Assembly (NCBI GenBank): GCA_009829735.1
Contig: CM020620.1
Coordinates: forward strand, 22,108,020 to 22,172,019
Direction: 5' to 3'
Length of the DNA: 64,000 bases
Origin: Pyropia yezoensis
Lineage: Eukaryota; Rhodophyta; Bangiophyceae; Bangiales; Bangiaceae
The position numbers and the translations under genes were made by a program. A model generated the notes under the pieces. The model was not told where the DNA came from. It ran no database searches and saw only the letters and a program-made list of their open reading frames with translations. Shown here one piece after another: positions 28,340 through 57,120 of this stretch (within the stretch, counting starts at the first letter, position 1; the number at the start of each line of letters is the position of its first letter).

Positions 28340-30446
28340 TCAAAAGCTTGAAAACGGTTCCCTCGGAAAAAGAATGTGGTGCTTTCCACGCGTGAAGAGG
28401 GTGCCCACCACAACGTCGATGGCAGCAAGAGAGACGTACCGTCGGCGCCCCCCAAAACCTCCAAAAAATGGCAGCCCAAAGTGCGTCTCTGGCAGGCCAT
28501 ATTTCCCGAGTCGGTGCCGTCCAGAGCGAATGCATTCGATGTAGGCAAGCGCACGTGGAGATACACCGGCGAAAACAGCCACGTAGTGCAAGACGAGCCC
28601 ATAGGTCCGGGTGCTGACCTCCTCCACGCCTCCAGCAGCCGTCTCGACGCGGTCGGTTGACTGCGCACGCACGAAATTGCTTGGCCGCCTCGCCAAGTCG
28701 TCGTCGGAGAGAGCAGCTTTGGAGCCAGCCACCACTCCAGTGGCCAGACGTACCCGGCCATACTTCATGGCGCGCACGGGTCCAGGCACATCATAGACGC
28801 CCTCGACCGCTAGCACTGCGTGCATAGCGGTAAGTTCTGCACCGAGAAGGAGGGCCGCCTTCTGACGCGGCGGCAACATCACGATGTCAGATCCACCAAT
28901 CATGGGAAACGTTTTCTCTTCCGTCGTCTTGGAAAGTGGAAGCTTCCGACTGGCCGATGCCCAAATTTCAGGTAAAAATGTTTCACCAAAAGAAGTAATC
29001 AGCTTCGCTTGATACTTCCTTGAAATCGACTTGACAAGACTTGCATACGGACTTGATCTTGATCCGACAAGCCTTGGTAAGGTGCCAATGAGCCGCTCCA
29101 TTCCGCATTGCCAGTACGTCCAGATGGGCCTACAGCTGCGGATACTTAAGGCGATGTCGAGCAAGGCGGCGATCGTCGACCGGCAGAACGGCAGCCTAGA
29201 CTTCTTGCCGCGGTACACCAGCGCGTAGTAGTCTTGACAAAACCGCTTGAGCCCTTCTTCCGCGGCGGTCAACTCGTCTTGCGAGAGAGGACGCGGTCGA
29301 AACAGCAGTCTGCAAGCTACGACAAGATGCATGAGCATATTGTAGAGAGACTGCGAGATCCGGCCAGCCAAGACAACCTCCGCCGTTGATAGCAAAACCC
29401 CCATCCAGTCTGCAGCTTTGTAGGACCGGAACGAGACCGCCAAGTTCCGTTGCGACCGTGCCTGCGAGCACGGCATGGTTGCCCTTGCGTCCCGCAGTTT
29501 GCGTCCGACCTCCGCCACGACGGCCGGGGCCATTGCCATGTCGCTTGGCTGGTCACCGTTAGCGCCAATTTTACCAGAAAAAATCAATCACAGCAGCGGC
29601 GTGACGTTCGGAAGCAATACGTGCATACAGTCGCAGGGCATCACATCAGGACCACTGTCCAACAGGTACGTCAACCCAGGGTACTTGAGTCGCTGGTCAG
29701 CGCTGGGCGAGCAAAACAGCGAGTAGCCCTTGAACCCCGAAAGCTTGCTCAACTCCGTGATGCGGGATTGCGGCTTGCCGGCGAGCCGAGCAGACTCAAT
29801 CTCGTGGACATGCCTCGCAATCGAAGCGGCTGTCCGAAGAGGAGCTGGGCACCTGTCCACAGCGAATAGCACCTCCCCGGACCTTGGATTCACTGGGGGG
29901 TAGTACATGTGTGACTTGGAGTACACCCCACTAAAGGCCCGGAAGCGGTTTGGCTGGTGCCCATTTTTTCCGGTGGCGTTCACCATCTTGTCGCCACCAG
30001 GCATATCGGCGGATACATGTAGCAGGTAGACGAGCAGCGTGTGCTCTCCCGGCGTGCCCGCGACCTTGACGCCTGGCACACCAATTGCCAAAGTGTTCAG
30101 CTGCTCGGCCAATGGATGAAGATAGGATTCTAGGTCTGCTGGTTGCTTCGGGCCAGGAGTCACGCCGACAAGAAGCTGGTTGACCACCCTTGCCCTGCAA
30201 TTAGCGTCGAGGTTGAGGATCGTAACGACCATGGGCCAACCTTGGAATCCTTGTTGGCGCCAAACCTCAAAACCGTCCGTGGAAAGGCTCAATGCCACAT
30301 CGGTGTCCGATCGAAAAAGCCCACGTCGCACTGCACTTCGAAAGTTTGTCCGTCGTACCAATCTTCGGAGCTACTGATTGCCTGCGAGGCCCGTTGGCGC
30401 GCGTAGGCCATCTCGGCCATCATGTCCGCTCCGAGAACTGGATCCT
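28340..30446 (-). pseudogene. CACTA-like (Tnp2/Plavaka type) transposase, main part, split by E2
   Basis: Reading leftward from the E2 boundary: helical segment, SSEDWYDGQTF, then the Transposase_21 core with STDGFEVW (catalytic Asp), FQGWPMVVTILNLD, and PCDCMHVLLPN near 29610-29640. The C-terminal domain has IWTYWQCGMERLIGTLP and RTYGLVLHYVAVF. Known for Tnp2: it cuts CACTA-type transposons at their ends. Lesions: a one-base frameshift in or near an A5 tract at about 30305-30318 (the plus-one frame dies at 30289), and TGA at 29588-29590 between two otherwise continuous same-frame halves. The missing N-terminus lies beyond E2 at 41325-41905. Confidence 0.8.
30442..30446. repeat. Target-site duplication of E2, left copy (ATCCT)
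   Basis: ATCCT directly precedes the 5' LTR of E2 and is repeated exactly at 41325-41329 after the 3' LTR, as Ty3/gypsy integration produces. Confidence 0.93.
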
Positions 30447-30809
30447 TGTAGCAATATGGTTGGCCGTATTGTGACCCTAATGTTAGGGGGGTTACTTCTA
30501 AACCTTGGCTTTCAATTTGAGAGTCTGTACTGGTCACGGTATCTATAAGCTACGCATGACCAGAGGGACTTGCATCTTGGGGTCGAGAGTAGTTAGTAGT
30601 GTCTCCGAGAATTTATAACGAGGGAGCCGGCGGCGAATCCACCGCCGGCCAAGGCAGAACAACAAACCCCTCCCATTTGGGCTCCCATCTTGGTCCCGTG
30701 GCTTGCGCTCCAAGGACAGCAACCTTGGCCTCCCGGTGACGTTGGTGCCGATCCCCCTTGGTGAGTGTTTCCTGAGAGTGGACGTGCGACGGATTCCTAT
30801 TGTGCTACA
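30447..30809 (+). repeat. 5' LTR of Ty3/gypsy element E2
   Basis: 363 bp, TGTAGCA...TGCTACA, paired with 40962-41324. It is the same LTR family as E1 (subfamily difference 'atggttggcc' against 'atggatgacc'). The two E2 LTRs differ at roughly fifteen positions, so E2 is an older insertion. Confidence 0.93.
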
Positions 30810-30810
30810 T

Positions 30811-30828
30811 TGGTGGAGCAGCAGGGGA
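30811..30828 (+). promoter_or_regulatory. Primer-binding site of E2
   Basis: TGGTGGAGCAGCAGGGGA, one base after the LTR, identical to E0 and the E3-type remnant. Confidence 0.78.
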
Positions 30829-31034
30829 CGGACTTCCGTCACCCTTGTGGTGACGCCGTCTTCGGCCCTGGCACACGGATAGGGATCCGGTCCTTTTCTT
30901 GTACTCGTGGTGTTGCGACCTGATCGATTGTGTTGAGTTTTTACCTTTGACTGTGATCTACTGTTACTCTCCCCAATCTACCCCCTCGCTCTCTTATTCG
31001 TCGTGATTGTTACGTCGGTTGACTGATTGTGACT

Positions 31035-33218
31035 ATGTCTACGCAAGAGACGGGGAACGTTCAAGATGACGGATCGGCGTCGACGCCGACTCCGGAGGTG
31101 ACTACGGGAACCGGTATCGGGAACCCGATCGACAACATTGAGACGCCCATGCTTTCCGGTGCCGGATCGACGTTTGGCACGGCTCGGACGGCAGGAGGCG
31201 GGGGCTCGCCTCAATTGTCATCGACCGACCTCACTCCGCCGCCTCCTTCACCAGGGGATTCCCTGATGGCATCATTGGCCCGCATCGAGGCCCGGTTTTC
31301 CGGACTCGACGCTCGTCAAGAGCGGACGGAGGACGCAATGACAGTGTTGATGTCAACACGCCACACGACGGGACCCCGTCGTGTTCCTCCCACACCGGTA
31401 CGGTTTGAACCGGCCGGACTACTTTCGGAGTCCACCGGGGTCGACCCCGGCGCAGCAACTCCCAGACAGCCCCCGGACACGATGGGGTATGGATCTGACT
31501 CGTCGGCAGAGTTGGAACGGAGTCACACGGAGCGATACGCTCGGAGCACCCGAAGCGGACTCCGCGGACACGACCCGGTGGATACTTACGCCGGTGGAGA
31601 GTCGGTTATTGGGGGAGGGGGTACCCTCTCACAGTACCCCCACGACGAAGGAGGCCAGGCAACTCGGGTTCCCCAGGTGCCGACGCCTGAAGTACCATCT
31701 TCAGTGGTGGAAGCTATGACCGCGCAGGTAACTGCAAGCCTACTGAAGCGGATGGAGTCCGATGAGTTTGCTCACCAACTGGCTAAGCGACTGGATACCC
31801 AGGACGCTGACACGGAGATCGTTAACGAGGTCTTCCGGTCGGTTCTTACTCCGGAACGTTATCGTTTGGAGGACCGATCTACCACCGTATCGGAATCGAT
31901 GCGTAATACGTCGCACCGAGCGATTCGCTCTATGCAGACCCTTATGAAGAGAGTCCCAATGTTCGGGGGGCCGAACGGACGCCCGTTGGCAGTCATCGGC
32001 TTCTTGAATAGCTTCAAGGCAGCCGCGGACAAGGCCCTCGTTAACGAGGGGCTGGCCATGGAGATCCTCCCGTTCTTTGTTGATGAACGAGTGCGAGGCA
32101 TCCTTCGCCAGGCGTCCCCGATGCCGGGAATGAGGGTTGCGGCCACCCCCATGGATTACCGTGGGATTCTCAAGGAGCTGCTGAGCAGTTACCTCAGTGA
32201 GGACAAGTGCGAGGACCACTACCGGGCCCTGCGCACTGCCACCGCCCAGAGCTGGGAGGATGAGGAGATGTTTGGACGCCGGATCCAAGAGCTCGACTAC
32301 GAGCTGGGGAAGCTTCTCGGTGAAGGGGAACTACGGGCCATCCTGTTCGCAGGAGTACCCAACTACGTGCGGATATCCGCACGGGGAGCCAACACGGCCC
32401 GGACGAACTTCAGTCGACTGATGCATATGTGCAAGTCCCTGAGGGACGCCTAGCGGGTGCTTCACCCGGATTGTGCTCTGGCCTCAAAGCCCAAGGGTGA
32501 GGGGAGCAAGCCCAATCTAACCCCGGTACCGAGGCAAGACAAGATGGAACGGAAGGCCGCACCGGTACTGGTGGCTACCGATTACGCCCCCACGGGCGAG
32601 GAGGAACCACTGGTTGACCAGCAGGGCCACCTGCTGTTACCGGCTACGCCGGCGATTGATGAGCAAGGTACGGTAGCGTACATCGCTCCGGCGGGGACCC
32701 AGTTCCAGGTCAGCGAGGGCACGGGACGTCGCGTCCCGTACGTACGGACTACGGGGTACTCCCCGGTGACGGGTAACCCTCACCAACCCTTGCCAACATG
32801 GGCGGTGCGCACGGAGGCACCTCCGCAGATTGCGGGCCGACCCAACCGGTTGGGGGAGTCCATGTTCCGGTTGACCCAAGGACCCAAGGCCTACCAGAGA
32901 GCAGGCACTCGGGCGCCCGAGGGAGGCAACCGCAGCTACGGGGCTACCCCGATGCGAACTCAAGGAGGGACCGGCACGTCCGGATGTACGTTGTGTGGGG
33001 ATCCCCAGCACTGGGTGTCTTCCTGCCCACTCATCCCCGAGGAGTCTCGGCGGGCAGCGGCGCAACACAAGGCATCCACCGGGGGGTATCCCGCCAGAGA
33101 ACCCGGACCCGCACCGGGTAGGCAGCCAGCTCCAGGTGGAGTACTGGCCGTCGAGGAGGCACCTGTTCAGCCGGAGGTCCCGGCGGACAGCACCCTACCA
33201 AGGGCGGGAAACGAGTAA
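31035..33218 (+). pseudogene. gag: E2 gag, one in-frame stop
   Basis: Begins MSTQETGNVQDDG. Layout is a Ser/Thr/Pro-rich N-terminal third, a helical capsid-like region around LMASLARIEARFSGLDARQ and beyond, a conserved IRSMQTLMK segment, a conserved AILFAGVPNYVR segment, and the zinc knuckle CTLCGDPQHWVSSC near 32987-33030. The only break is TAG at 32451-32453 where E1 has TAC (Tyr). The gag stop TAA at 33216-33218 follows the frameshift heptamer by one codon. Without the TAG it would be about 727 residues. Whether the TAG is a lesion or a readthrough codon cannot be told from sequence; E1 argues for a lesion. Confidence 0.87.
33206..33212 (+). promoter_or_regulatory. Putative -1 ribosomal frameshift heptamer, E2 gag/pol
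   Basis: GGGAAAC, read G GGA AAC in the gag frame, then GAG TAA. Pol continues in the -1 frame without a stop from here into the ATG-bearing frame at 33227. Downstream, CCGGGG (33231-33236) can pair with CCCCGG (33263-33268), enclosing a small GGGTAACCC hairpin. E1 pairs different bases at the same place. The 18-nt spacer is longer than the usual 5-9 nt. Confidence 0.72.
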
Positions 33219-33226
33219 GAGGAAGG

Positions 33227-36200
33227 ATGACCGGGGGGCGCTGGGGTAACCCAAGCAAGCCACCCCGGAGTACCGCGGAGAAAGCTCCATGGAGAGCGCG
33301 GTTGAGCCGACGCCGCATCAACCCCCGGGTACACCTTCCGGGCCCGACGATACGGCGTCAGGGGATTGATGGCCAACCTCCAAGGTTGGGAGGAGAGGAC
33401 GGGAAGCCCCGTCACATGGAACCAGACGAGGGCCCTGTTCAGGATGCCCGAGCTACACCGGATATCGGTGTAGGACATGTGCTGTTTACCTTGGAGAACT
33501 TCAAGGTATCAGCCACACTGGGGGTTGACCCCCAGTCGACACGATCGTACTACCCTGAACTGGATACAGGGGCTGGACCCAACCTTATCCGGAAGGATTC
33601 CCTCCCAGACAAGTGGCTTCCGCGAGTCAGAGTGACTCGGGGACCCACCATCAAGGACGCGAATGGTCGCCTCATTCGTACGACCGCAGCGATGTCGCTG
33701 CGGGTTACCATCGGGGAACTCACCACGGAAGTCGACTTCCTGGTGTGTGAGACCCTATCGGAGCCCTTCATATTGGGATGCACCTTCATCAACGTTCACG
33801 TGGACGCAATCCGGCCAGGCCGGAGGACCGTCGAGCTTCAAGAAGCCGACGGGACGAAGCGAGGACATACGGCTATCGTCAGGGACCAGACGCTACAAGG
33901 GAGCCACGTTAACGTGGCTGAGGTGTACGCAAGCGCCGAGCCGAAGACACTTCGGTTGGCCAAGCAAACTCGCTTTGAGCCTTTGTCGGAGACAGTCCTC
34001 CCGGTTAACTGCGACCTCGCAGGCATCTGCAGAGTCCGGTCCATCCTGCAGACGTACAAGCGCCATGGGTTGACCATGGCCAACGGTCTCATAGACCTCT
34101 CAGCAGGAGGGTCGTCCCTCCTAGTGATGGCGAACTATCGCCGTAAGGCAGTCACCCTCCCGAAGGGAACTATCCTCGGGATTGCCGAGCTCTACGAAGG
34201 AGATATCCTTACCCCTGACAAGGAAGGTCAAGTGGAACCACTTGAGGTACTGGCTGCCGCCGAGACCACCGAGCGACAGCAACCCGATGACGGGAAGCCT
34301 AACCCATCGGCGGCTCCGGCGGACATGCCGCCAAAGGACCAAGAAGCCTTGAAGGCACTGGCCGAGGCTGACCTCGACCATCTTCCCCCTTCGGTAGCGG
34401 AAGGGGTACGACGGATGCTAAGAGCGCATGACGTCATGTGGACCGGCGGGGCTCTGGGTACCATTGGGGCATCCCAACATCGTATAGACCTGGTACCAGG
34501 CGCACGACCCGCCCGGTCACAACCGCACCGAGCGGGACCTATGCAACGAGAGATCGTTGATGGAGAAGTGAAGAGGATGAGCGAAGCAAAGGTGATCCGA
34601 CCTTTGATGTCGGAGTGGGGTGCCCCAGTCGTTATCGTACCGAAGAAGGATCAAACCCCTCGGTTTTGCATCGATTATCGACGCCTCAACTTGGTTACCA
34701 AGAAAGACTCATACCCTTTACCAAGGATGGATGAATGCATCGACTCCCTGGGGGAAGCTACAGTGTTTACCACCATCGACTGCAATGCCGGATACTGGCA
34801 GATCCCAGTGGCGGACGAGGATATCCCCAAGACGGCGTTCGTCTGTCACAGTGGAGTGTACGAGTTCCTAAGGATGCCCTTCGGATTGTCCAACGCCCCC
34901 GCCACATTCCAGCGGGCCATCGACATTATACTGTCGCGAGTGAAGTGGCGTAACTGCCTAGTGTACCTCGATGACGTTATCGTCTTCTCGCGTAACATGG
35001 ATGACCATGTGCAACATGTGGACGAGGTACTCACCCTCTTGCGGAACGCCGGGGTAACCCTGCGTCTGAAGAAGTGCGCCTTCTTCCAACAGACGGTCGA
35101 GTATCTGGGCCACCAGATAACCCCTGGTAAACTAGGGGTACTCGAAGCCAATACCCGGGCACTCCGGGATGCCCGGTTCCCTAACATCCAGATGCAGCTC
35201 AAGAGCTTCCTGGGAATGTGCAACGTATACCGACGGTTCGTCAAGGACTTCGCTCGGATAGCTAAACCGTTAACGGTTCTTACGGGCAGTACCTTGCCCA
35301 AGGCACTCCAACCCCCTTCGCCTAGCGAAGAGGAGGCATTCGAGTCGCTGAAGCGAGCCCTACTATCCCCACCCGTCCTTGCGTTACCGCACAGACGGGG
35401 TACCTTCGTCATCGATGTCGATGCGTGCGATACACAAGTGGGATGCACCCTGTTACAGGGAGAGACGTTGATCGGTTCCGATAACGTTATCCCGGACCTA
35501 CGTCCGGTAGGGTACTTCAGCCGGACACTCAACCCGGCTGAGCGTAACTATAGTGCCACCGAGCGTGAGTGTCTCGGAGTTATATGGGCAGTGCAACCGC
35601 TCCGTCCATACCTGGAGGGCTCTAGGTTCATCGTGAGGTCCGACCACGAACCCCTACGATGGCTCATCAACCTTGGTGACAAGGATTCCGATAGCCATGG
35701 GAGGCTAGCCCGATGGAGGCTGAAGATGGCCGAGCACGACTACCGCACCGTATATAAGGCTGGGTCAACCCACCACCTCGGAGACGCGCTGTCTCGACTC
35801 GACACCCCGAGCGGGGATACACGCCCGGTGGACGAGGACATCCCGGTGGTACCGGTCTGCATGGTCGGTAACGCTACCCAAGGTATGGTTGACCATACCA
35901 TGGCACACCGAGCATGCCCACTGACCCTCGCGGACTTCCGCGAGGCACAAGCCAATGACGACGACTGTAGACGTCATCGCGCTAACCTCCGGGCCGGCAC
36001 GGCCGGCATCTTCTCCGAGAATGAAGACGGACTCATATACCGGCGGGCACCCGCCGATGGACGACATCAAGTCGTGGTTCCCGTGTCCTTACGGCAAGCC
36101 GTCATGGAACGAGAACACGAGAACCCTACAGCCGGACACCCGGGGGGTTCACGTATGTTCGCAGCAATGCGAAGGTTCTTCTACTGGCCAGCAATGGCCG

Positions 36201-37393
36201 TCGACGTGGTCGACCACGTAAGGGGATGCCACCCCTGTGCACGTAACCGCATGAGTCTACATAGGCAGGCGTCTCCCATGAAACTGTTCCCACCTGATGG
36301 GCCCAACGAGCAGGTCGCTATCGACATACTCGGGCCACTTCCGGAAACGGAAGAAGGGAACAGGTACATCCTAGTCAGGTCAGACCGATTCACTGAGCTG
36401 TCACGAGCGGCAGCCATCCCGAATGATACGGCATATACCATCATGAACGCAGTGGTTGACCACTGGATCAGTGCATACGGAGTCATGAAGCAACTCCTCT
36501 CCGACAACGGAGCAATCCGGACGTCTGCAGTCTGCACTTAGATCATGGGCATGTTCGGCATCGAACCACGTCGGGCATCCGACTACCACCCGCAAACCAA
36601 CGGGCAAGTGGAGCGGTATAACTGCACCACCGTTAAGATGCTACAGTGCTACGTGGCCGAGCACAAGAACACTTGGGACAGGCTTCTTTCCGTACTCACC
36701 CTGGCATACAATGCCAGGCCACATCGGAGCACAAACATCGCCCCACTGGAGTGGGTCATGCCACTAGGCGTCGGTAACCTGACGCTGCCACCCGGCAGGT
36801 GCACTCGGTATGATACACCGAAGGGCCGACCGGCCGAACGCATCCACCTAGCTTGGTTGGCCAATCTATCGTGGATGATTCCTAAGCTCAAGGGTGCCCT
36901 TGACAGAACACAACTTCGATACAAGAAGAACTTCGACGCCCGACTACGGGTGCGCAACGCTACCCTGATGACAGGCGACGGGGTCTATATCAGACACCAG
37001 AAGTACCGAGGGAACAAGCTCATGCAACCGGTCAAGGGACCGTACCAGATCCTCCACAAAGATGACCACTCGGTTATCCTCCACTCCGATACGGAGATAC
37101 AATGCATCAGTATTAACGGTGTCACACCAGCGCCAAAGCCAGAACATCCTCAGCCGGTACCGGCTGGGTTGCTACATGAAGCTCTTACCACCCGCCGGTC
37201 GGAAGACCCGGTGGGACCGGATGGAATCCCGTAGCAAGTGGAGAGCATCGTCGGACATACCGACCCAGACCTACCAGAACCCTGGTACGTCAAGGTAATG
37301 TGGGTCGGTTACGACTCACCCACCTGGGAACAGGCGGCAAATATACCCCGCCAACTACTCATGCCGTACATGAGGCGACGCCGCCTCCTGTAA
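33227..37393 (+). pseudogene. pol: E2 pol (PR-RT-RH-IN-chromodomain), two in-frame stops
   Basis: Residues counted from the ATG at 33227: protease DTGAGPN near 113, reverse transcriptase with YLDD at 580-583, RNase H from about 700, integrase zinc finger (H...H...C..C) near 950-1010, catalytic D1033, D1093 and E1129 (35 residues between the last two, as in integrases), and a chromodomain near the end around VKVMWVGYDSPTWEQ. TAG at 36539-36541 replaces AAG seen in E1 and E4, and TAG at 37232-37234 replaces TAC. Otherwise open from the frameshift site to TAA at 37391-37393. Confidence 0.9.
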
Positions 37394-37472
37394 CAACCCA
37401 ACCGACACCGACTTCGGATGTTGGGGGGTGGGGCTTATACCTACTAAGTAGGGTGTGACATGGTTATGGCAG

Positions 37473-37536
37473 ACTTAGGTTTCTAAGTCAAATCGGACTT
37501 GGGTTTATAAGTTCAGCCAAGCTTAGATAACTAAGT
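37473..37536. repeat. Three palindromes at 24-bp spacing between convergent genes of E2
   Basis: ACTTAGGTTTCTAAGT (37473-37488), ACTTGGGTTTATAAGT (37497-37512) and GCTTAGATAACTAAGT (37521-37536) start exactly 24 bp apart; the first and third form 5-6 bp stems with 4-nt loops. The corresponding place in E4 (59230-59316) has four better copies. It lies between the stop of pol and the stop of the antisense gene. Confidence 0.7.
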
Positions 37537-37843
37537 AAAACCTGAACCTTAATAAGTTAACTTAAAGGTAGAGGCTTACTCCGATAATATCGAAGTAACT
37601 AGGGGGCTTACAAGGGAGGATGACCTCCCCAAGCCAAGACACAAAGTGAGGGAGGATGACCTTCCCAAGCATGAACCAACCGGAAGAAGTAGGACGGGAG
37701 GCATGGCACCACTGAGCCAGAAGGGGTACTCCCGAGGGCAGCAAACAGAGGCAAGCAATGCCCCCAGAGGGGATGAGTTTATACTCACTAATACCCGGCC
37801 GCCATAAGGGTCACCGGGTCCCTCACTCTCACTCCCACAACCA

Positions 37844-40375
37844 TCAGAAGGGGCTACCCCCGCCAGCAGAAGAGGGCCAGTCACGCGTCGTCGCGTACAC
37901 TTCCGTACTCCGACGGTCGGCTATCTCACGCCGGTTGAGCGCCTGAGCTACCTCAGCGCTAAGATGCACCAGAGTGCTGTCACCAGCCTCAACAGCATCC
38001 AGAGCCATCCGTAGGCGGTTGAGCACCCAACCGAGGCAACGCGCGGTACCGACCAGCGCAGCACCTGGGGGGATGTCCCCCCAGCTAACCGGAGGCGCCT
38101 CCGTCAACTCACGAGAGAGAAGGGCGTTAACGCCCTCATACGACAAGCGAGGACCCCCGTCGGGAATGACGGGAGCCGGCGATGCCACGGGAGGAACCGG
38201 AGCTACAGCCGGAGGAATGGACACCGCCACCGCCGGAGGCGGCAGTAGCTGGTAAGGAGCACGGTACGACCATGAAGGAGGACCAGACTCCTGGGCAGAA
38301 CGCCCACCGGGATCCCGGTGGAACTCCCCACGACGACGATACGTCTCGCGGCCCCCACCAGTGGAGTCCCACTCACGGCGACGGCGACCCGTCCCCGTAG
38401 GAGTCGGTTTACCGAACCAGGGGGTTCCCACCTGGAGAGGGTCGGGCAGGACCACGGGAATACCCAGGCCGGGTACCGACTCGGTGGATGCCCACCCCTG
38501 GTATCCAGCCTCACCCGAGACAACTCGGCGGATAAGTAGCGAGTGACGAGGCAACGGGAGCGTTCCCGGTTGCGCGTCGCGGAACGGCGGCAAGGTCGCC
38601 ACCGCCGACCAGTTCACGGCATCGTGAACGGCCACGAGCGCAGTCAGCTCACGGGTTAACCCCGTCCCAGTAGCAATGGCGGTAACGCCTAGCTCCCCAA
38701 GGTGCCGACGGACACCCGTCGGAAGATGGAAGAGCCGGCCCCGTCGGCGGGCCGACAACAGGAAGAAAGAAACCTGCCCGAGGGTAACCTCGAGGGTAAA
38801 GACACCCTGCAGCACATGCGTGGGCCGAGCGGCCAGCACACTGCTGAAGTAGCGCAGGCAAGGACCGGTGTCAAACCGGAAAGCCGGGGCGGGCTCCCAC
38901 CCCTCTTGCCACCCAGGCGGGCGCAACAGAGTGTATACGGGCGCACGACCGTTACCGGTCTGCAACGCGCACGTTACATCCGTGCGGAATGGGTCCGCCA
39001 TGACACCATGGTTTCGACGCCAGCTGGACGCCGACTTCAGGCCACCCATGGTCGGGAAGGGCGGCGTCAGCCACAGATACGGGGGATCCCCCGGGTAGTA
39101 ATCCAAACCGGGATACCGGTTGGTACCAGGCACGAGCTGCCCGAAGGCCACAGGGGTCTGAGTAGCAGCCACCCCGCGGGCACCCGCAGAGTAATCCACC
39201 TCCCGCGGCAGCGCGGGGGCAACCAAGTCGCACACCCCAAAGGCGGGGTGGTGGGCAGCCTCAGGCCGCCCGACCCGGGCGCGCCAGAGTTGAGCATGCC
39301 GGTCGTCCGGCTGGCTGAGTATCCAATGATGCTCGGCGCGAACCGCGTCAGGCTGGGCAACCAGCCGAGCCAACTCCCGCTCCCAACAAGGGTCCAACGG
39401 GACCGGACGGGAGGTACTTCCGCGGCGATCCGACGGGTGGAAGTCCACCCGCATCCGACCGCCCGAATCCATGGGCTCTTGCACGGTCAAGCTGCGCACC
39501 CGGGTCACCAGCTCGGAGACCGACAACGGGGGATGTCCCACCGTAGAGGCGTCGCCGCAACTCGCGGAGGCGGTACCGCCAACCGCAGAGGCGACGCCGC
39601 CACCGACCAAGCCAAAGCGGCCACCCAACGGGGCGACCCGGGCCGGCCCAGGAAGAAGCGCCGGCGCCGGCGGAAGCCCAACCGGTAGGTGCACCGGCGC
39701 CGGAGCACGGGGACGAGGAGGAAGAAGTAGGGCGGGCACCCGCCCGGAGTAGCTCCCGGTGTCAACCGCCATGGGGGAAGGAGCGTCTTGACCGCCCGAC
39801 GCCCGCGGCACCGCGGGTAAGGTACCGGCGCCGGCCCCACCCGTCGACGTCGCCCCCGCCTCGGAAGGGGGAGGAACTTGGACAACCTCGGGAGCCTGAG
39901 CACCAGCCGTGCGGGCACCCGCACTGTCTTGACCGGCCACCCCGGGTGTCGCGCCACCACCAGCACCCGTGTCAACGACGGGATCGCGTTCAGGATGCAC
40001 CGTCCGGACTCCCGGACCACATTGCCCAGCCGGAGTCGGCCGGGGATCGCCACTTCCGCCGTAGGGCGGGCCATCTTGGGGTAGCTGCGGCGAGCCGGCT
40101 CCGGCACCAGGCTCCATCCGGGCAGCCGGCAGAGAGGGGGTAGAAGCCGCCACGAGCGGTTGACCGCCGGGTTGGCCCCCGACCGACGGCACCGTCCTGC
40201 CACTGCACACGGACGACAGTCCTCCGGCCGCCAGATGGACGGATACCGCTGGCTCGTCGTCTTCAGACGAGCTCGTCCCGTAACGCGCGGCGGCAGGACC
40301 GACAGGCGCGTCGTCCTCCATCTCCTCCCCGATCAGGAGTTCTTCCTCCTCCCCCAGTACCTGGGGATAGGACAT
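37844..40375 (-). CDS. E2 convergent additional (antisense) gene, intact, unknown function
   Basis: 843 residues from the ATG at 40375 (the start conserved in E1 as MSDPQVP, here MSYPQVL). The N-terminus is acidic (GEEEELLIGEEMEDD), followed by about 250 residues rich in Pro, Ala and Gly. The conserved core begins near residue 340 (EHHWILSQPDDRHAQLW) and includes PALPREVDY, CALQTGNGRAPVY, FRFDTGPCLRYF and GRLFHLPTGVRRH, with HDAVNW near 578. A Pro-rich linker precedes a C-terminal helical segment (LVGTARCLG...RREIADRR, near 770-815). No signal peptide, membrane helix, protease or nuclease motif is evident. It is fully open although this element's gag-pol has three stops. Known parallel: maize Grande and rice RIRE2-type Ty3/gypsy elements carry antisense genes in this position. 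Any function, such as regulator, envelope-like protein or suppressor, is speculation. Confidence 0.8.
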   Translation of the reverse strand: MSYPQVLGEEEELLIGEEMEDDAPVGPAAARYGTSSSEDDEPAVSVHLAAGGLSSVCSGRTVPSVGGQPGGQPLVAASTPSLPAARMEPGAGAGSPQLPQDGPPYGGSGDPRPTPAGQCGPGVRTVHPERDPVVDTGAGGGATPGVAGQDSAGARTAGAQAPEVVQVPPPSEAGATSTGGAGAGTLPAVPRASGGQDAPSPMAVDTGSYSGRVPALLLPPRPRAPAPVHLPVGLPPAPALLPGPARVAPLGGRFGLVGGGVASAVGGTASASCGDASTVGHPPLSVSELVTRVRSLTVQEPMDSGGRMRVDFHPSDRRGSTSRPVPLDPCWERELARLVAQPDAVRAEHHWILSQPDDRHAQLWRARVGRPEAAHHPAFGVCDLVAPALPREVDYSAGARGVAATQTPVAFGQLVPGTNRYPGLDYYPGDPPYLWLTPPFPTMGGLKSASSWRRNHGVMADPFRTDVTCALQTGNGRAPVYTLLRPPGWQEGWEPAPAFRFDTGPCLRYFSSVLAARPTHVLQGVFTLEVTLGQVSFFLLSARRRGRLFHLPTGVRRHLGELGVTAIATGTGLTRELTALVAVHDAVNWSAVATLPPFRDAQPGTLPLPRHSLLIRRVVSGEAGYQGWASTESVPGLGIPVVLPDPLQVGTPWFGKPTPTGTGRRRREWDSTGGGRETYRRRGEFHRDPGGRSAQESGPPSWSYRAPYQLLPPPAVAVSIPPAVAPVPPVASPAPVIPDGGPRLSYEGVNALLSRELTEAPPVSWGDIPPGAALVGTARCLGWVLNRLRMALDAVEAGDSTLVHLSAEVAQALNRREIADRRSTEVYATTRDWPSSAGGGSPF

Positions 40376-40961
40376 GATAACGGGTGGCAGAGTCCCCCGC
40401 GCCCACAAGCCGTCGACGGCTACGACCCGGTACGGTGGGACAACCGGGACGAGCCAGGGATGCGCGGGCACCCGCGCTTATGACCACAAACAGCCACGAG
40501 AAGCGCCGCAGGCACGCGGGTCGACCCGCGCCCCACAGGGCTACGAACGCGCTCCACCCAGGCACCTGGGCGGGACGGGGCCACACCCCCGTACGGGGCA
40601 ACCAAGAGGGGTTCACACCGAAACCGCGCCCGCGAAAAGCGGGAGCGGCCGCCCCCATTCACTCGGTAACACGAGAGGGGCTCCCCTACGACCAGACACC
40701 TGGTGGCGGATCCGCTTGCCCCACCCCTCGGAAAGGGGGGGTCGTCAACAGAAATCCGCATCGGGAATTTAACGGTCCGGAAAACGGATCGTGTGTGTAC
40801 CACACAAAGGGGGGCAACCCCCTCAGACAACCTTGAAAAGGGGTGTCTGTCGCGACAGGGCGCAAAGCCCCACCCGACTAGTAACGGTCACAAGACCCAC
40901 TTACATTCGGTAACCCGAATGCAACTCGACCCGAGGACGGGCCGAATCTAAGGGGGGGATA
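40376..40961. promoter_or_regulatory. E2 region upstream of antisense gene, with polypurine tract
   Basis: Non-coding and similar to 24223-24807 of E1. It contains the conserved hairpin CATTCGG/CCGAATG near 40904 (loop sequence differs, stem kept) and the polypurine tract AAGGGGGGGATA (40950-40961) against the 3' LTR. Likely promoter region for the antisense gene; no core promoter element is certain. Confidence 0.6.
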
Positions 40962-41324
40962 TGTAGCAATATGGTTGGCCGTATTGTGACCCTAATGTTA
41001 GCGGGGCTACTTCTAATCCTTGGCTTTCAATTTGAGAGTCCGTACTGGTCACGGTATCTATACGTTACGTATGACCAGAGGGACTTGCAACTTGGGGTGG
41101 AGGGTAGTTAGTAGTGTCTCCGAGGGTTTATAACGAGGGGGCCGGCGCTGAATCCACCGCCGGCCAAGGCAGAACAACAAACCCCTCCCATTTGGGCTCC
41201 CATCTTGGTCCCGTGGCTTGCGCTCCAAGGACAGCAACCTTGGCTTCCCGGTGACGTTGGTGCCGATCCCCCTTGGTGAGTGTTCCCTGAGAGTGGACGT
41301 GCGACGGATTCCTATTGTGCTACA
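40962..41324 (+). repeat. 3' LTR of E2
   Basis: 363 bp partner of 30447-30809, followed at once by the ATCCT target duplication. Confidence 0.93.
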
Positions 41325-41905
41325 ATCCTCCAGCATTGATGTAAGCCAAGAGATCAACGGCCAATAGGTTACCTGCCGACGGGGGGTGGACGAACCGGGC
41401 TTGCAACGCGACTGCTTACAAACATCGAACGCGGACATGACGGCCCTTGCGGCCGTAAACGCTACGCAGCTATTGTAGCAGGTATCGACGAGCACCTCGT
41501 GCAGGTCTACTGCGGCGTTGACCAGCCTCTGCTGCCGATACGGTGAGCGGTAGCGGAGTTGATGACTTGCGAGATGCAGAAGGTGACCAACAGCTTTTCT
41601 TAAGGGCTGGTGGTACACCGACGAAGAGAAAAAAGCGAGGTCGTGAACAACGGATCGAAACTGGTCGACGTGGAGGACCCCTTGGCTCTTGGCACACCCG
41701 TCGGTCGCAGCCAGGGGAGGCAAAACGAAAAGTTCATCGTCCTCACGGGCGTCCACCTCCTTGTCGTCTTCCACCCACTCCTCCTCCGCTTCCCCGTCCG
41801 TGGGACAGCCTTCCAACCCGTCCTCCTCTCCATCCCAAAGGTCAAGAGTCCCCCCCCCCTCCCATCCAACCCCCGCACCCCCCTCCCTGCTGCCGTCTTC
41901 ACCAT
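41325..41905 (-). pseudogene. CACTA-like Tnp2 transposase, N-terminal part beyond E2
   Basis: Minus-strand frame running from the LTR edge at 41905 down to the E2 target site. It has an acidic stretch (EAEEEWVEDDKEVDAREDDE), a helical segment, Cys pairs CYNSC and CKQSRC typical of the N-terminal finger of Tnp2 proteins, then RRQVTYWPLISWL. It joins in frame to 30446 when E2 and one ATCCT are removed. The true start is lost because an LTR of the second family abuts at 41906. Confidence 0.75.
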
Positions 41906-42476
41906 TGTAGCATCCCTGGCCCCGACTTGGCGCCGACCCGGGACTGCAACCAGAGGGCACCAGGTGCCAGAACACGCCCGCCGTGCGGTGATGGTTGCCG
42001 GCCGTGGCCCGTGCCCGGCACAGGGATGCGGTGGACTACGCTACCCACACGTGAGAAAGGGATTTCTGCTGGGTTTTTGCATACTTGTGAGGGACTTGAT
42101 TTGAGAGAATTTGAGTGTGAGATTAGTGAGTGGGAATAGAATTAGTAGTGATAGTGGCCCCCGACCTGACGAGGTTAGACTCGGGTCGGGGCCATTCGGG
42201 GTTATGGGGGGGCTACCTGGCCAACGTGCCGAGGCTCCCCCAGATGCACGTTGAGAGGGACAGCGAGGCGCCCTTGGCCCGCGCCCTCAGGGAAAAGACA
42301 ACTGCGCGTTTGCTTTCCTCTTCCCCGTGTGCACTACCGTGCGTATCTGTTTGCTCTTCGAGCAGGCACGTGAGGCAGCAGGCGTACCACTCTCGTAGTT
42401 CCCCTTTCTGTGTTACCTGTCCCATTCCCCCGAGGGATATTGACACGTGTCTGAGAGGATCGAGTTTTATACCACA
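41906..42476 (+). repeat. LTR of family B (first copy)
   Basis: 571 bp from TGTAGCATCC to ATACCACA, followed after four bases by a primer-binding site (42481-42498). About 97% similar by eye to the copies at 42888 and 56550. It interrupts the Tnp2 remnant; the preceding pentamer ACCAT was not found after any later family-B LTR. Confidence 0.9.
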
Positions 42477-42887
42477 TATTTGGTGGAGCAGCAGGGGATT
42501 GGAGTGTTTGAGAAGAGACATTTGGGAGCAGCGGTTGGGTTGTTCCTGTTCGGTCTTTTTCTGTGGTTTGGGAATTATTTGCACCCGTTCATGGGAATCC
42601 CTTTCCTGGCTCTCCAACCCCTCTCTTGTGGTCTTGCGATCTTTGAACACGCAATGCAAGCATGGAACTATGTAGAAAAAACAAGCACCCGCTCGAGCAA
42701 CCCTTCTCTCCGCCTCTTCCCTCCTCACTCTTCCATAGACTCTCATCCTCCTTGCCTCCAAGAATTACTCCCGGCGCGGACGCTTCGCCGCAGAAGCATC
42801 CTCCAGTGCCGCCTCCGCGGCACGACGGGACCCAGAGGAAGGCAGGATGACGTAATGCGGTGGACGAGGCGCTTTCACGTATGACGC
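42477..42887 (+). mobile_element. Family-B internal remnant (gag, pol and antisense gene deleted)
   Basis: 42477-42654 matches the leader of E3 (43457-43635), including the primer-binding site. At 'aacacgca' it jumps to a segment (42655-42887) matching the pol-end/antisense-gene-end region of E3 (about 54138-54368, 'catggaac...aagcacccgctcg'). That word also occurs at the E3 acceptor site, so the deletion formed at a short direct repeat. It then runs straight into the next LTR. Over 8 kb of coding sequence is missing. A non-autonomous derivative or recombination scar. Confidence 0.75.
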
Positions 42888-43456
42888 TGTAGCATCCCTG
42901 GCCCCGACTTGGCGCCGACCCGGGACTACAACCAGAGGGCACCAGGTGCCAGATACGCCCGCCGTGTGGTGATGGTTGGCGGCCGTGGCCCGTGCCCGGC
43001 ACTGGGATGCGGTGGACTACGCTATCCATACGTGAGAGAGGGATTGCTGATGGGTTTTTGCATACTTGTGAGGGACTTGATTTGAGAGAATTTGAGTGTG
43101 AGATTAGTGAGTGGGAATAGAATTAGTAGTGATAGTGGCCCCCGACCTGACGAGGTTAGACTCGGGTCGGGGCCACTCGGGGTTATGGGGGGGCTACCTG
43201 GCCAACGTGCCGAGGCTCCCCCAATACACGTTAAGAGGGACCGCGAGGCGCCCTTGGCCCGCGCCCTCAGGAAAAAGACAACTGCGCGTTTGCTTTCCTC
43301 TTCCCCGTGTGCACTACCGTGCGTATCTGTTTGCTCTTCGAGCAGGCACGTGAGGCAACAGGCATACCATTCTCGTAGTTCCCCTTTCTGTGTTACCTGT
43401 CCCTTTCCCCCGAGGGATATTGACACGTGTCTGAGAGGATCGAGTTTTATACCACA
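42888..43456 (+). repeat. LTR of family B (second copy), 5' LTR of E3
   Basis: 569 bp, TGTAGCATCC...ATACCACA, directly upstream of the E3 primer-binding site and gag. It differs from the presumed 3' LTR at 56550-57120 by roughly ten changes, although the pol between them is intact. Confidence 0.9.
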
Positions 43457-43460
43457 TATT

Positions 43461-43475
43461 TGGTGGAGCAGCAGG
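43461..43475 (+). promoter_or_regulatory. Primer-binding site of E3
   Basis: TGGTGGAGCAGCAGG, four bases after the LTR end. Same first 15 bases as in E0, E2 and the family-B remnant, despite unrelated LTRs. Confidence 0.75.
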
Positions 43476-43668
43476 AGATGATTGGAGTGTTTGAGAAGAG
43501 ACATTTGGGAGCAGCGGTTGGGTTGTTCCTGTTCGGTCTTTTTCTGTGGTTTGGGAATTATTTGCACCCGTTCACGGGAATCCCATTCCCGGCTCTCCAA
43601 CCCCTCTCTTGTGGTCTGGCGGTCTTTGGACACGCAGGCAACTGAACTGTGGCTGTCAAGAGACCAAC

Positions 43669-45429
43669 ATGGCTACCCTCCCTGGCACGATGGTGCCCGA
43701 AGGGGTAGACCCCGCGTCCCTTGACGCATCCCTGGTCACCGCGGGGGACGGTGCCCAACCCGGAGCTCTCCCTACGGGTGAAGCAGACCTGGGTGTGATA
43801 TCCGGTAGCGGACTGGAGTCCACAGGCGGCCAAGCACCACCTGCTCCCGTTCCTCCGGCTGTTCCTCCTGTGGGAGCCACCCCGGGGTCAACGGCGTTTG
43901 AGTCCGCTCGCAGCAGACGTCTCCCTCCTGTCGGCTCTACTCCTCAACCTCCGGGGATAGCCCCTGGTGTGTTTACTCCTGGACCCACACATGGCAGCTG
44001 GGTGTATACACCTCTTCCTGTGGGCACTAGCGATGCCAGAGGCACCGTTGTGACTGGTTCTACGGGTCTTCCTGAGACCTCGACTCCTGGGACCGGCCAA
44101 GCTTTTCCTCCCCTTGCATCCTATGGGGCGGGGAGCTCCAAGACCGGTAACCGGAGCAGCCGAAGGCGTCGGTGTCATCGCCGTCGCTCTAGCACCAGCG
44201 AGACCAGTTCCTCCAGCTCTGAGGAGGGATATGATTGGGATGCATCTCCCGGTCCCACCCGGCGCAGGCTAGTCGAGTTTGACTTCCCTGCCCACCAAGT
44301 GGGAGATGCCACCCTAAACAAGGTCACGTATTGGGGTAACTACCGGCTGGAGAACCAAGACCAAGGTTACACCCGGAAGATGGCCAAGAAGATGGCGTCC
44401 CTGAACCGGCGAATGCAGCCGAGCTTCGGGGGACATCCTAAGTTTTCTGGGAAGAGACCGGCGCTTATCTTTGCCTTCCTGCGCCGGTTTGTCAAGGCAT
44501 GCAATGACAACGATGTGTCTGAGGGCAAGGATCTCTACCTCCTGGTTAACTTCATGACCGGAGAAGCGGAACAGCGGTTTGCACAGGTTCTACCAGACTC
44601 TGCCGGACACATTGTCGGACGTACCGTCGCGAGTTATCCGGAGGCGGTCAACTGGCTCCTGTCCAACTACGCTGACGCGGACTCTCTGCGTAAAGCAGTC
44701 GGCAGGCTGAACCGGGCAACCATGGAAAGACAAGAGACTCCAGAGGCGTTTGCCCGTCGTGTCCGGGAGATGAGGGATGCTTGTGGCAACGTTTACCCTG
44801 AGGACAGGCTCAAGATGATCTTCTCGGAAGGGCTTCCTGAATATCTTCAAGTGGATGCGGAGAACTACAACCAGGAACATCAACAACATACCTTCCAGCA
44901 GTTGATGGCCTACACCCAGGGCAAGTACCGGCAAGCCAGGGCCCTCCAAGCTCCCATGGTATCAACTCCCAAGCCGTTGTCGCGAGTTCGACCCGGACCC
45001 GACAAGTATAAGGGAGGTGATAGCCCTGTACCAGTACTCGCAGTTGGCGAGGCCTCACCCATGGGGTCAGGGGACAAGTGGGGCGGCTTCGTTTCTAAGG
45101 AGCAACCATCCCTGGTCGCCCCCAGGCAAGTCAAGAACCAGCGGTTCCGGTCTTGTTGGCTGTGCCAGAAGGAGGATCACATGTCCTACCAGTGCCCGAC
45201 CATTCCCAAGGACCTCCAGGAGAAACTCAAGCGTCAAGGACTGGTGTTTGCAAAGGCGGTCAACTGGGCTGACCGGCGGGCACCCTCCAAGATGGACAAG
45301 GCACAGGTACACGCAATCCGAGTGGCAACCTTACAGAGCATCACGGAGGCTCTGGCAAGGGAAGCTCCTACGGACTTTGACCTGGAGACCGAAACCTCTA
45401 AGGACTCCTCGGACCCGGGAAACGAATAG
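43669..45429 (+). CDS. gag: E3 gag polyprotein
   Basis: 586 residues from ATG (MATLPGTMVPEG). The first 200 residues are Pro/Thr/Ser/Gly-rich, then an Arg/Ser-rich patch (RSSRRRRCHRRRSS) and an acidic stretch. A retrotransposon-gag capsid-like region follows (ALIFAFLRRFVKACND, WLLSNYADADSLRKAV, RVREMRDACG, IFSEGLPEYLQ), then a CCHC zinc knuckle CWLCQKEDHMSYQC (C-x2-C-x4-H-x4-C) near 45151-45192. It ends TAG at 45427-45429, two codons after GGGAAAC. Forms the particle and packages RNA. The last 16 codons overlap the open pol frame, which begins at 45381. Confidence 0.9.
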   Translation: MATLPGTMVPEGVDPASLDASLVTAGDGAQPGALPTGEADLGVISGSGLESTGGQAPPAPVPPAVPPVGATPGSTAFESARSRRLPPVGSTPQPPGIAPGVFTPGPTHGSWVYTPLPVGTSDARGTVVTGSTGLPETSTPGTGQAFPPLASYGAGSSKTGNRSSRRRRCHRRRSSTSETSSSSSEEGYDWDASPGPTRRRLVEFDFPAHQVGDATLNKVTYWGNYRLENQDQGYTRKMAKKMASLNRRMQPSFGGHPKFSGKRPALIFAFLRRFVKACNDNDVSEGKDLYLLVNFMTGEAEQRFAQVLPDSAGHIVGRTVASYPEAVNWLLSNYADADSLRKAVGRLNRATMERQETPEAFARRVREMRDACGNVYPEDRLKMIFSEGLPEYLQVDAENYNQEHQQHTFQQLMAYTQGKYRQARALQAPMVSTPKPLSRVRPGPDKYKGGDSPVPVLAVGEASPMGSGDKWGGFVSKEQPSLVAPRQVKNQRFRSCWLCQKEDHMSYQCPTIPKDLQEKLKRQGLVFAKAVNWADRRAPSKMDKAQVHAIRVATLQSITEALAREAPTDFDLETETSKDSSDPGNE

Positions 45430-48400
45430 GGCAGGCGCTCTCCCCAAGTGTCTTCCCGAACCTCCAACGGCAGGGTACTTCTACCTGTTCCCCCCTTGCG
45501 TGCCGGGAGAAAGGACGGCGGTTACCTGCTCAACCGGTAGCCGCCTGGACACCCTGTTTGTTCAAGGGGACATTGCTCGTCCTGCGTAAAGAAAACCTCA
45601 AGATTAATGCTCGTATGCGTGTGGGGGATAGCCTCCCCCAAGCTGTTACGCCGGTGGTTGACACGGGAGCCGGACCAAGCGTCATCACTGAGAACCTGTT
45701 ACCTCCGGGCTGGCGTCGACATGCCTGGAGAGCGCCTCCCCGGACCCATATCGTCGACGCTTCGGGTCAAACCCTACGACCGCTTGGCCGTCTTCCTGTC
45801 GCCATCTATGTCAACAATGAACCAATGCTTTTTCCCTTTCTAGTAGTCAAGACCCTATCAGTCCCCCTCATCCTAGGCTGGGACTTCCAGAAGCAGCATG
45901 TCAAGAGCATCCTACCCGGAGAAGGGAAGGTCCAGTTCAGCCATGGGTTTGTGTCACCGGTATTGCAACATCTGGACGCCAAGGTTCGTGTAGCCAAGAG
46001 CAAGAGGGAACGCATCCCACCCTCTACCTTGACTCTCTTCAAACCGGTGCTCCTACCTCCTCGCTCGGAGACCAAGGTTCATGTAACGACCCGGATTGCA
46101 GGTCAATGCCTGATCTACGGACGTAAGGAATTTCTGGCGATACACCGGTTATACTTGGCCCACGGACATCACAAGAAGGTAGAAAGGCACACCCCGTTCT
46201 CGGTGCTAATCGTCAACGTGAGCCGGAAGCCAATAACCCTCGCCAAGGGCACCCGAGTTGGTACAGCAGAGCCTTACCGTGGATCCGCCCGTGCTATGAG
46301 CAAGGAAGACCTCCTGAACCTGCAACAAGAACTGGCATCCAACTTGACGGCCTTAGACGTACCTCCGAAGCAAGAGCAGGCTGGCAGCGCTACTCCGAAA
46401 CCCGAACAAGCACCACCCGGGATGCCGAAGGTCAAGCAAGAAAATGTCCCTCCCGACTTGAAGGAGGCACTGGAGAAGCTTCTCCAGGAATATCGGCACC
46501 TGTGGTCGGGAGAGCTGGGCAAGATGGACGCCACTCTACACCGGATTCAACTCAAGCCGGAAGCTAAGCCAGTGCACATGCAACCATATCGGGCCGGACC
46601 TCATCGCCGGGATGAGATTGAGAAGCAGGTTAACAAGATGCTCAAGATGGATGTTATCGAGCCGTCTGATGGCGAGTGGGCTTTCCCGGTGGTAGTCGTC
46701 CCGAAAACCGGCGGTCACTTCCGTTTCTGCGTTGACTACCGGCGCCTGAACGAGATGACAGTCAAGGACGTATACCCGATACCCCGGATGGATGATTGCC
46801 TCGACTTTCTTGGTGATGCCACCCTTTTCTCGACGCTGGATTGTAATGCCGGTTACTGGCAGATCCCTCTGGCTGACGAGGACAAGGACAAGACCACCTT
46901 CACGTGCCACCTGGGACTATTCCGGTGCAAGCGTCTTCCTTTTGGTCTCACCAATGCTCCCGCGACCTTCCAAAGAGCCATCGACATCATCCTGTCCGGG
47001 CTAAGGTGGAGACCATGTTTGGTCTACCTGGATGACATTATCGTTTTCTCCAAGACCCCAGCGGAACACCTGGAGCACCTTCGGGAGGTCCTGGCCCTCC
47101 TGTCCAAGGCTGGAGTTACCCTCAAGGCCGAGAAGTGCCACCTCTTTGAGACTGAGGTGGAGTATCTGGGGCACGTGCTGAGTCCGGGGGAGCTCCGAGT
47201 CAATGAGAAGAACATCAAGGCCCTCCGGCATGCACGGCAACCTAAAACCCAGACAGAACTCAAGAGCTTCCTGGGTATGTGCAACGTCTATCGCCGGTTC
47301 GTACGGGACTATGCTCTGATTGCCCGGCCATTGACCAAGCTTACCAGCAAGAAGCTTCCCGCACAACTCCCGGTGTTCGACGAGAAGCAGACCGCGGCCT
47401 TCGAAGAGCTCAAGAAGCGCCTGACCACCACTCCAGTACTGGCGTTACCCAAGCGGGAGGGCCAGTTTGTTCTGGAGACTGATGCCTGTGGCGTCCAGGT
47501 CGGGTGCTCACTACTCCAGCAGCAACCTGATGGGCACTTCCTCCCGATAGGCTACTACAGACGCGTCTTGATTCCAGCCGAGAAGAACTATTCCACGACG
47601 GAGCGCGAGTGCTTGGCAGTCGTCTGGGCTTGCTTCCTGTTACGGCCATATCTTGAAGGACAAGAGTTCCTCATCCGGACGGACCACGCCAGCCTAAGGT
47701 GGCTGCTATGCATGGACAGCAGTCAAGGAAGGGTCGCCCGGTGGCGCCTACGCCTTTCGGAGTTCAAGTACAAGGTGTGCACCAGAGCAGGGAGGGAGCA
47801 CCACTGCGCCGACACCATGTCCCGGCTGGAGACTCCTGCAGCCGATACCGGTCCTATCCCGGAGGAAATACCTTGCTTCATCCTCCCGAATGTCGGACGT
47901 GGCTGGCATGCTCCCCTGCATGAGACACCTGAAGCTGATCAACCGGTGACTATTCACCGGATGCTGGAGGCACAACTGACGGATCCTAAATGCTTGGAGC
48001 TTCGCCACCAAATGGACCTGAACCGGAACAGTCGTTTCTCCGAGTCTACAGACGGACTCCTAGTACGGGTGTCACCCTTCGATGGGGCCACTCAAGTCTA
48101 CGTACCCCGGGGCCTACGAGCTGACATCCTACGCCTGGAGCACTCGTCTCCCCAGGCCGGACATCCTGGTATCAATCGGATGTATGCTTCCATGAGACGA
48201 CACTATTACTGGGAAACCATGGCCAGTGACGTCCATAAGTACCTGGAGGCTTGTGTTTCTTGTGCAAGGAACCGGTTGTCCCAGAGGAAGAAGACTTCTA
48301 AGCTACGCCTATTCCCTGCGGCGGAGCCCTTTGCAAGCTTAAGCATGGACATCCTGGGGCCCCTACCTGAAACATCCAGTGGCAACATATACCTGCTCAT

Positions 48401-51384: not shown

Positions 51385-51884
51385 NNNNNNNNNNNNNNNN
51401 NNNNNNNNNNNNNNNNNNNNNNNNNNNNNNNNNNNNNNNNNNNNNNNNNNNNNNNNNNNNNNNNNNNNNNNNNNNNNNNNNNNNNNNNNNNNNNNNNNNN
51501 NNNNNNNNNNNNNNNNNNNNNNNNNNNNNNNNNNNNNNNNNNNNNNNNNNNNNNNNNNNNNNNNNNNNNNNNNNNNNNNNNNNNNNNNNNNNNNNNNNNN
51601 NNNNNNNNNNNNNNNNNNNNNNNNNNNNNNNNNNNNNNNNNNNNNNNNNNNNNNNNNNNNNNNNNNNNNNNNNNNNNNNNNNNNNNNNNNNNNNNNNNNN
51701 NNNNNNNNNNNNNNNNNNNNNNNNNNNNNNNNNNNNNNNNNNNNNNNNNNNNNNNNNNNNNNNNNNNNNNNNNNNNNNNNNNNNNNNNNNNNNNNNNNNN
51801 NNNNNNNNNNNNNNNNNNNNNNNNNNNNNNNNNNNNNNNNNNNNNNNNNNNNNNNNNNNNNNNNNNNNNNNNNNNNNNNNNNNN
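51385..51884. other. Assembly gap, exactly 500 N
   Basis: A run of N of round length, an arbitrary-size scaffold gap. Frames that appear to cross it are meaningless. Confidence 0.99.
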
Positions 51885-56365: not shown

Positions 56366-56536
56366 GACGTCCAGACTCCGGGGGAACGCGAGGGCCAAGG
56401 TGAAGGAGAGAAGGGGGGCAGAGAACCGGAGCAGGTGATCGTGACCAGGGTGAAGACGCTCGACCTCGGCACCGGTGTGGACGTGCTCGAGGCTGTGCAC
56501 GGTGGCACCTGGTTGGGCCCGAGGACGTGCCGGACT

Positions 56537-56548
56537 AGGGAGGGAGCT
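56537..56548 (+). promoter_or_regulatory. Polypurine tract of E3
   Basis: AGGGAGGGAGCT directly precedes the LTR start at 56550. Equivalent to the G7 tracts of E1 and E2, though it does not share their sequence. Confidence 0.6.
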
Positions 56549-56549
56549 A

Positions 56550-57120
56550 TGTAGCATCCCTGGCCCCGACTTGGCGCCGACCCGGGACTACATCCAGAGG
56601 GCACCAGGTGCCAGAACACGCCCGCCGTGTGGTGATGGTTGGCGGCCGTGGCCCGTGCCCGGCACTGGGATGCGGTGGACTACGCTATCCATACGTGAGA
56701 GAGGGATTGCTGATGGGTTTTTGCATACTTGTGAGGGACTTGATTTGAGAGAATTTGAGTGTGAGATTAGTGAGTGGGAATAGAATTAGTAGTGATAGTG
56801 GCCCCCGACCTGACGAGGTTAGACTCGGGTCGGGGCCATTCGGGGTTATGGGGGGGCTACCTGGCCAACGTGCCGAGGCTCCCCCAGATGCACGTTGAGA
56901 GGGACAGCGAGGCGCCCTTGGCCCGCGCCCTCAGGGAGAAGACAACTGCGCGTTTGCTTTCCTCTTCCCCGTGTGCACTACCGTGCGTATCTGTTTGCTC
57001 TGCGAGCAGGCACGTGAGGCAACTGGCATACCATTCTCGTAGTTCCCCTTTCTGTGTTACCTGTCCCTTTCCCCCGAGGGATATTGACACGTGTCTGAGA
57101 GGATCGAGATTTATACCACA
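56550..57120 (+). repeat. LTR of family B (third copy), right end of E3
   Basis: 571 bp, intact at both ends. Its left part shares bases with the copy at 42888 ('ctatccatacgtgagagag'), while its right part shares bases with the copy at 41906 ('agatgcacgttgagaggga'), so it is a mosaic of the two. It abuts, without any spacer, the interior of the E4 antisense gene at 57121. Confidence 0.9.

Follow-up and report, generated by a model that had tools for sequence, protein, structure and literature searches.

The layout with an antisense open reading frame (ORF) is documented in flowering plants and in the fungal element Boty (PMC7264820). Grande gene23 is described there as being driven by a promoter of its own, located upstream, and as encoding a product found in the nucleus (PMC7264820), and a nucleic-acid-binding regulator has been suggested for the antisense TRP28 ORFs of Retand (PMC11963269). 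In a survey of Viridiplantae, Retand, a non-chromovirus lineage, is reported only in Eudicotyledons and Liliopsida (PMC11963269). The antisense accessory genes described in flowering plants and fungi have no known function (PMC7264820, PMC11963269). An antisense promoter located within the 3' LTR of HTLV has also been cited (PMC7264820).

Here we analyzed a 64,000-nucleotide stretch of DNA from the red alga Pyropia yezoensis (contig CM020620.1), hereafter the window. A previous reading made from the letters alone (the sequence-only reading) had claimed that each Ty3/gypsy element in it, E1 to E4 and probably E0, carries downstream of pol a long gene on the opposite strand, convergent with pol. 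Besides these elements, the window contains an ORF with a DDE_Tnp_1_7 transposase domain (5176-7494, minus strand, E 1.4e-36) and an ORF with a hAT dimerisation domain (3507-4241, E 1e-4). The coordinates of the features are given in Table 1.

E2 possesses two LTRs (30447-30809 and 40962-41324) of 363 bp each, which are 95.3% identical, with 17 differences and 0 gaps, and its termini are TGTAGC...GCTACA, corresponding to TG...CA LTR ends. The element is flanked by the 5-bp target-site duplication ATCCT (30442-30446 and 41325-41329). Its pol contains RT, RNase H and integrase H2C2 domains of the Ty3/gypsy type, in that order; the integrase core (rve) was detected in the pol of E4 and not in the E2 frame, which breaks at 36539-36541. 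Because of these LTRs, the target-site duplication and its position between pol and the 3' LTR, the E2 antisense gene is part of the inserted unit. Three in-frame stops interrupt the E2 gag-pol (32451-32453, 36539-36541 and 37232-37234); the longer pol frame of E4 reads through the positions of the last two, the counterpart of the first lying outside the window in E4.

Table 1. Coordinates of the antisense genes, of the E2 element and of the edges of its putative exchanged cassette (positions in the window)
Feature	Position	Strand	Remarks
E2, complete Ty3/gypsy LTR element with antisense gene	30447-41324	+	LTRs, target-site duplication, pol domains
E2 pol	33122-37234	+	interrupted; in-frame stops 36539-36541 and 37232-37234
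E2 antisense gene	37844-40375	-	843 codons, ATG at 40375, stop at 37844
Acidic N-terminus	40256-40375	-	residues 1-40, net charge -11
Conserved core	38501-39388	-	residues 330-625; carries EHHWILSQPDDRHAQLW and GRLFHLPTGVRRH
Arg-containing linker	38096-38500	-	residues 626-760
C-terminal helical domain, predicted	37877-38095	-	residues 761-833
Left edge of putative exchanged cassette	37781-37791		best breakpoint, maximum chi-square 446, 1062 informative sites
Right edge of putative exchanged cassette, approximate	40660-40780		E1/E2 identity alone; E4 absent here
E1 antisense gene, disrupted	21858-24222	-	start as given by the sequence-only reading
E4 antisense gene, 5' end cut off	57121-58917	+	truncation at the end of the E3 3' LTR
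E3 antisense gene, different protein, same layout	54248-56365	-	partial duplicate within 49662-51384
E0 antisense gene remnant, probable	10106-11332	-	motif resembling the core

The window is GC-rich and long spurious frames occur in it, such as one of 517 codons at 22197-23750 (+), and the length of the E0 ORF is within chance, as expected if the antisense frames were chance openings in GC-rich DNA. However, the E2 antisense frame measures 877 codons from stop to stop, a length reached by none of 500 dinucleotide shuffles of 37400-40960, in which the longest frame averages 242 codons with a maximum of 476. The frames of E3 (54248-56587, -) and E4 (57088-58917, +) were likewise matched by 0/500 shuffles of their respective regions. 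For E1, E2 and E4, chance is refuted by the codon-level selection described below, in addition to these shuffles of the E2 and E4 regions, and we give it almost no weight as an explanation of the antisense frames.

To evaluate this selection, we compared the copies of the E2-type family, of which the window provides three (E1, E2 and E4), over 550 codons per pair, the one stop codon of E1 being excluded. The dN/dS ratio between E2 and E4, a check proposed by the sequence-only reading, is 0.27 (bootstrap 0.21-0.34), not near 1. It amounts to 0.35 (0.26-0.47) for E1/E4 and 0.30 (0.24-0.37) for E1/E2, with values of 0.17-0.27 in pol for comparison. In the antisense frame, changes are most numerous at third codon positions, with for instance 127, 88 and 218 at the three positions for E2/E4. 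The other five frames contain 3-19 stops per sequence and give dN/dS values of 0.42-1.90, the lowest being that of the frame which has its third positions in common with the antisense frame. The antisense proteins of the three elements are homologous (65-86% identity), and conservation of their core, as claimed earlier, is confirmed by E2/E4 dN/dS values of 0.15-0.29 according to the sub-region. The strongest constraint is found in the mid-core (0.12-0.17). In the E1/E4 comparison, the least constrained regions are the linker, with a value near 1 (0.94, bootstrap 0.51-1.85), and the C-terminus (0.62, with a wide interval). At the sequence level, these comparisons demonstrate that the antisense gene is protein-coding and has evolved under purifying selection in E1, E2 and E4.

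It had also been pointed out that E2 keeps this gene open although its gag-pol contains three stops. Both the stops and the open frame are confirmed, but under neutral decay at the divergence of the E2 LTRs the probability of finding no stop in the antisense gene is 0.23; a gene as large as E4 pol would be expected to contain about 3.2 stops. With such a probability, the openness of E2 since insertion is weak evidence of selection, and the case for selection is carried by the comparison between elements. Another explanation could be that the antisense RNA, and not the protein, is functional, by pairing with genomic RNA and limiting copy number or feeding small-RNA silencing. The convergent layout is compatible with such pairing, and the formation of dsRNA is one role that PMC7264820 considers possible for transcripts of this kind. 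However, the amino-acid-level constraint in the antisense frame is unexpected if RNA alone matters, and we consider this explanation quite improbable; both roles may coexist.

The claim that every element carries the antisense gene stands for E1, E2 and E4, probably for E0, and for E3 as regards layout. In E1, the gene is disrupted by a stop at 22632-22634 and by a shift of frame that occurs between 23833 and 23795. That of E4 is without N-terminus because it starts at 57121, where the 3' LTR of E3 ends. A 24-bp tandem repeat (3.8 copies, 59230-59319) is located where pol and the antisense gene of E4 converge.

In E0, the ORF of 384 codons does not exceed chance length (134/500 shuffles reach it). 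Nevertheless, it contains a motif resembling that of the core (GRLFHLP...HDAVNW in the E2-type family), with a tblastn E-value of 0.002; its strand and its side relative to the deleted pol are as expected. A profile domain was found at 11332-11093 (E 0.0055) as the top non-family match among 432 six-frame chunks, and hhalign gave an E-value of 0.0021 but a probability of 13.5%, with a score reached by 1/200 shuffles. When the profile was run on stop-to-stop ORFs, E0 gave E 0.29 and was not the top non-family match. Taken together, these sequence matches make it probable that the E0 remnant belongs to the E2-type antisense family. The E0 pol (8924-9994) has undergone an internal deletion, its RT (to ~9757) being fused directly to an integrase C-terminal piece (9806-9976).

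The gene of E3 had been said to differ in sequence while keeping the layout, and both points hold. Concerning homology beyond layout, the score of the E3 core against the E2-type core was reached by 83/200 shuffles and that of its motif part by 30/200, whereas the C-terminal 115 residues beat 200/200 shuffles. This C-terminal match ranks third among 435 windows, the two higher ones being 10- and 18-column matches. Profile searches with the E2-type family did not find E3 at E<=5. The models of the E2-type and E3 proteins, which are poor, show helices lined up at the C-terminus in what may be a similar way. We regard the homology of the E3 gene to the E2-type family as at most suggestive. A protein search with E3 returned one close relative, P0014 (98%).

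E3 itself appears twice in part. Within 47300-55969, a 500-N gap (51385-51884) is bordered on both sides by the same 4,085 bp, and since the two sides, compared over this length, differ by 4 single-base indels and by no mismatch, we read the doubling as unmerged contig ends; the two partial E3 copies are thus most likely a single locus. Upstream, two E3-type LTRs (41906-43636) surround a short remnant composed of a gag start (42512-42652) and an antisense-gene C-terminus (42768-42890), which looks like an internally deleted relative having its LTR in common with E3. The C-terminus of the E3 pol (45402-49781) gives a weak chromodomain-like match (PF00385, E 0.0048), below the Pfam cutoff; a retrotransposon chromodomain is reported by PMC3350952 as not found in Porphyra yezoensis, Galdieria or Cyanidioschyzon.

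The E2 antisense protein begins with acidic residues after the Met, as do P0012 at its annotated start and an internal part of P0006, and continues with a Pro/Ala/Gly-rich stretch up to about residue 280. In the linker, the net charge is +3 over residues 641-680 and +2 over 681-720. A confident model was obtained only for the E4 counterpart of the predicted C-terminal domain (residues 541-600 of P0002, block mean pLDDT 70-91); searches with the antisense protein yielded no PDB sequence match, no fold match and no confident structure of the core. The sequence-only reading had recognized no domain, and indeed no Pfam family matched the 7 antisense frames at E<=1 or the 23 rows at E<=0.1. In particular, TRP28 (PF04195) gave no match at these same thresholds in either set, and no Pfam bZIP match was found in the antisense frames.

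A protein of structural or envelope-like type, or a gene captured from a host or virus, serving particle function rather than regulation, would agree with the length of 843 aa and with the location after pol, which is that of env-like genes in plants (PMC7264820). However, the same source classes env-like genes with the sense-oriented additional ORFs (PMC7264820), profile comparison with the gag of E2 or E3 gives no similarity (hhalign E 0.11-0.15), and Pfam provides no match; we regard such a function as unlikely.

Relatives were searched for with a protein search that reaches only proteins having short exact words in common with the query. A first search (9 matches among 7,985 scored candidates) revealed at least seven homologues in Pyropia vietnamensis, annotated as hypothetical proteins and 32-52% identical, six of which were recovered in a second search (18 among 7,993). 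Among the matches listed, relatives occur only in P. vietnamensis and in ENA/Logan contigs. These homologues, together with dN/dS and the six-frame comparison, bear out the proposal of a conserved accessory protein convergent with pol.

The mosaic structure of the E2 antisense gene relative to its own pol had been missed. Over the stretch between the gag end and the pol end, the identity of E2 and E4 in 250-column windows is 87.6-99.6%; it is 68-81% across the antisense gene, where E1 and E4 are 85-93% identical throughout. At informative sites, E1 is the odd sequence for 418/546 between 32780 and 37200; between 37844 and 39561 (three summed ranges with common end bases), it is E2 for 343 of the 479 sites, E1 for 73 and E4 for 63. 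In agreement, the dS between E2 and E4 is 0.09 in pol (1406 codons; 0.06 in the first 694) versus 0.77 in the antisense gene, and that between E1 and E4 is 0.28 (692 codons) versus 0.22. The left breakpoint falls just beyond the antisense stop codon, and a small patch at the pol end (37200-37400) likewise singles out E2 (14 sites versus 7 for E1). On the right, E1/E2 identity in 60-bp steps goes from 64-80% (40300-40719) to 88-98% (40720-41319). These sequence comparisons establish that the E2 antisense copy differs in history from the E2 pol; the gene, together with the region upstream of it, resembles an exchanged cassette of ~2.9 kb, comprising the antisense gene and the ~345 bp that precede its start.

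Judged from only three copies, a gene that evolved faster in place, without exchange, would lengthen the E2 branch and give site counts like those of an exchange. However, synonymous divergence is raised as well, the edge is sharp and lies just outside the gene, and E2 is no further from P. vietnamensis than E1 and E4. We judge faster evolution along the E2 branch very improbable, since E2 is closer to the P. vietnamensis protein P0007 (65.5% identity) than E4 (60.4%) or E1 (58.0%). In a tree of 14 rows, in which 3 of the 11 inner branches are well supported, the E2 branch equals the E1/E4 stem (0.17 each).

We favor, with moderate confidence, a joint reading in which the antisense gene is a selected accessory gene, a separately transcribed regulator of the element and an exchangeable module in this red-algal Ty3/gypsy lineage. 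The gene, antisense to gag-pol and located between pol and the 3' LTR, would have its own minus-strand transcription, starting from a promoter upstream of 40375, in the 40376-40961 region or in the 3' LTR. Its product would combine an acidic disordered N-terminus, the conserved core, the Arg-containing linker and the C-terminal helical domain. Judging from the analogous cases of Grande gene23 and of the regulator suggested for Retand, a nuclear regulatory role appears most likely: the protein may act in the nucleus on the expression, RNA or integration of its own element, or counter host silencing. Recombination, be it gene conversion or template switching between co-packaged RNAs, would have brought into E2 a divergent form of the gene along with the region upstream of it, and the antisense gene would accordingly behave as an exchangeable module. 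A tentative extension, which we hold to be possible but doubtful, is that the gene is a transferable specificity module, whole divergent versions being swapped on a background of near-fixed replication genes and LTRs. Such swapping would be expected if the protein is the part of the element exposed to host silencing, or if it decides which relatives get regulated.

The sequence-only reading considered the protein undescribed, which fits both the Pfam result and the literature searched, where subscription journals were thinly covered and no red-algal antisense accessory gene was found. Its comparison with Grande and RIRE2 holds for layout; a common protein family is not supported, TRP28 giving no match. 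Grande gene23 and the RIRE2 gene, compared by layout, have the same position and strand as the E2 gene. Retand is, like E2, a Ty3/gypsy element with an antisense ORF, but unlike E2 it has TRP28 (PF04195). Boty (Botrytis, Sclerotinia), compared by layout only, offers the same arrangement outside plants, in a fungal host. HBZ is an antisense regulator gene near the HTLV 3' LTR, and the E2 antisense protein is far longer; the analogy is functional only, with no homology claimed, the E2 gene being without bZIP match. The layout is thus already known, and what appears new here is a protein without recognized relatives, a new lineage, and a gene seemingly exchanged as a unit. Since this selected family, which has no Pfam relatives, comes from a red alga, the layout would seem to emerge, or to be retained, widely. 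The exchange of the cassette against a near-constant pol is a natural experiment, marking a part of the element that is maybe under diversifying pressure, and elements with a common pol but different antisense genes make the function of these genes testable.
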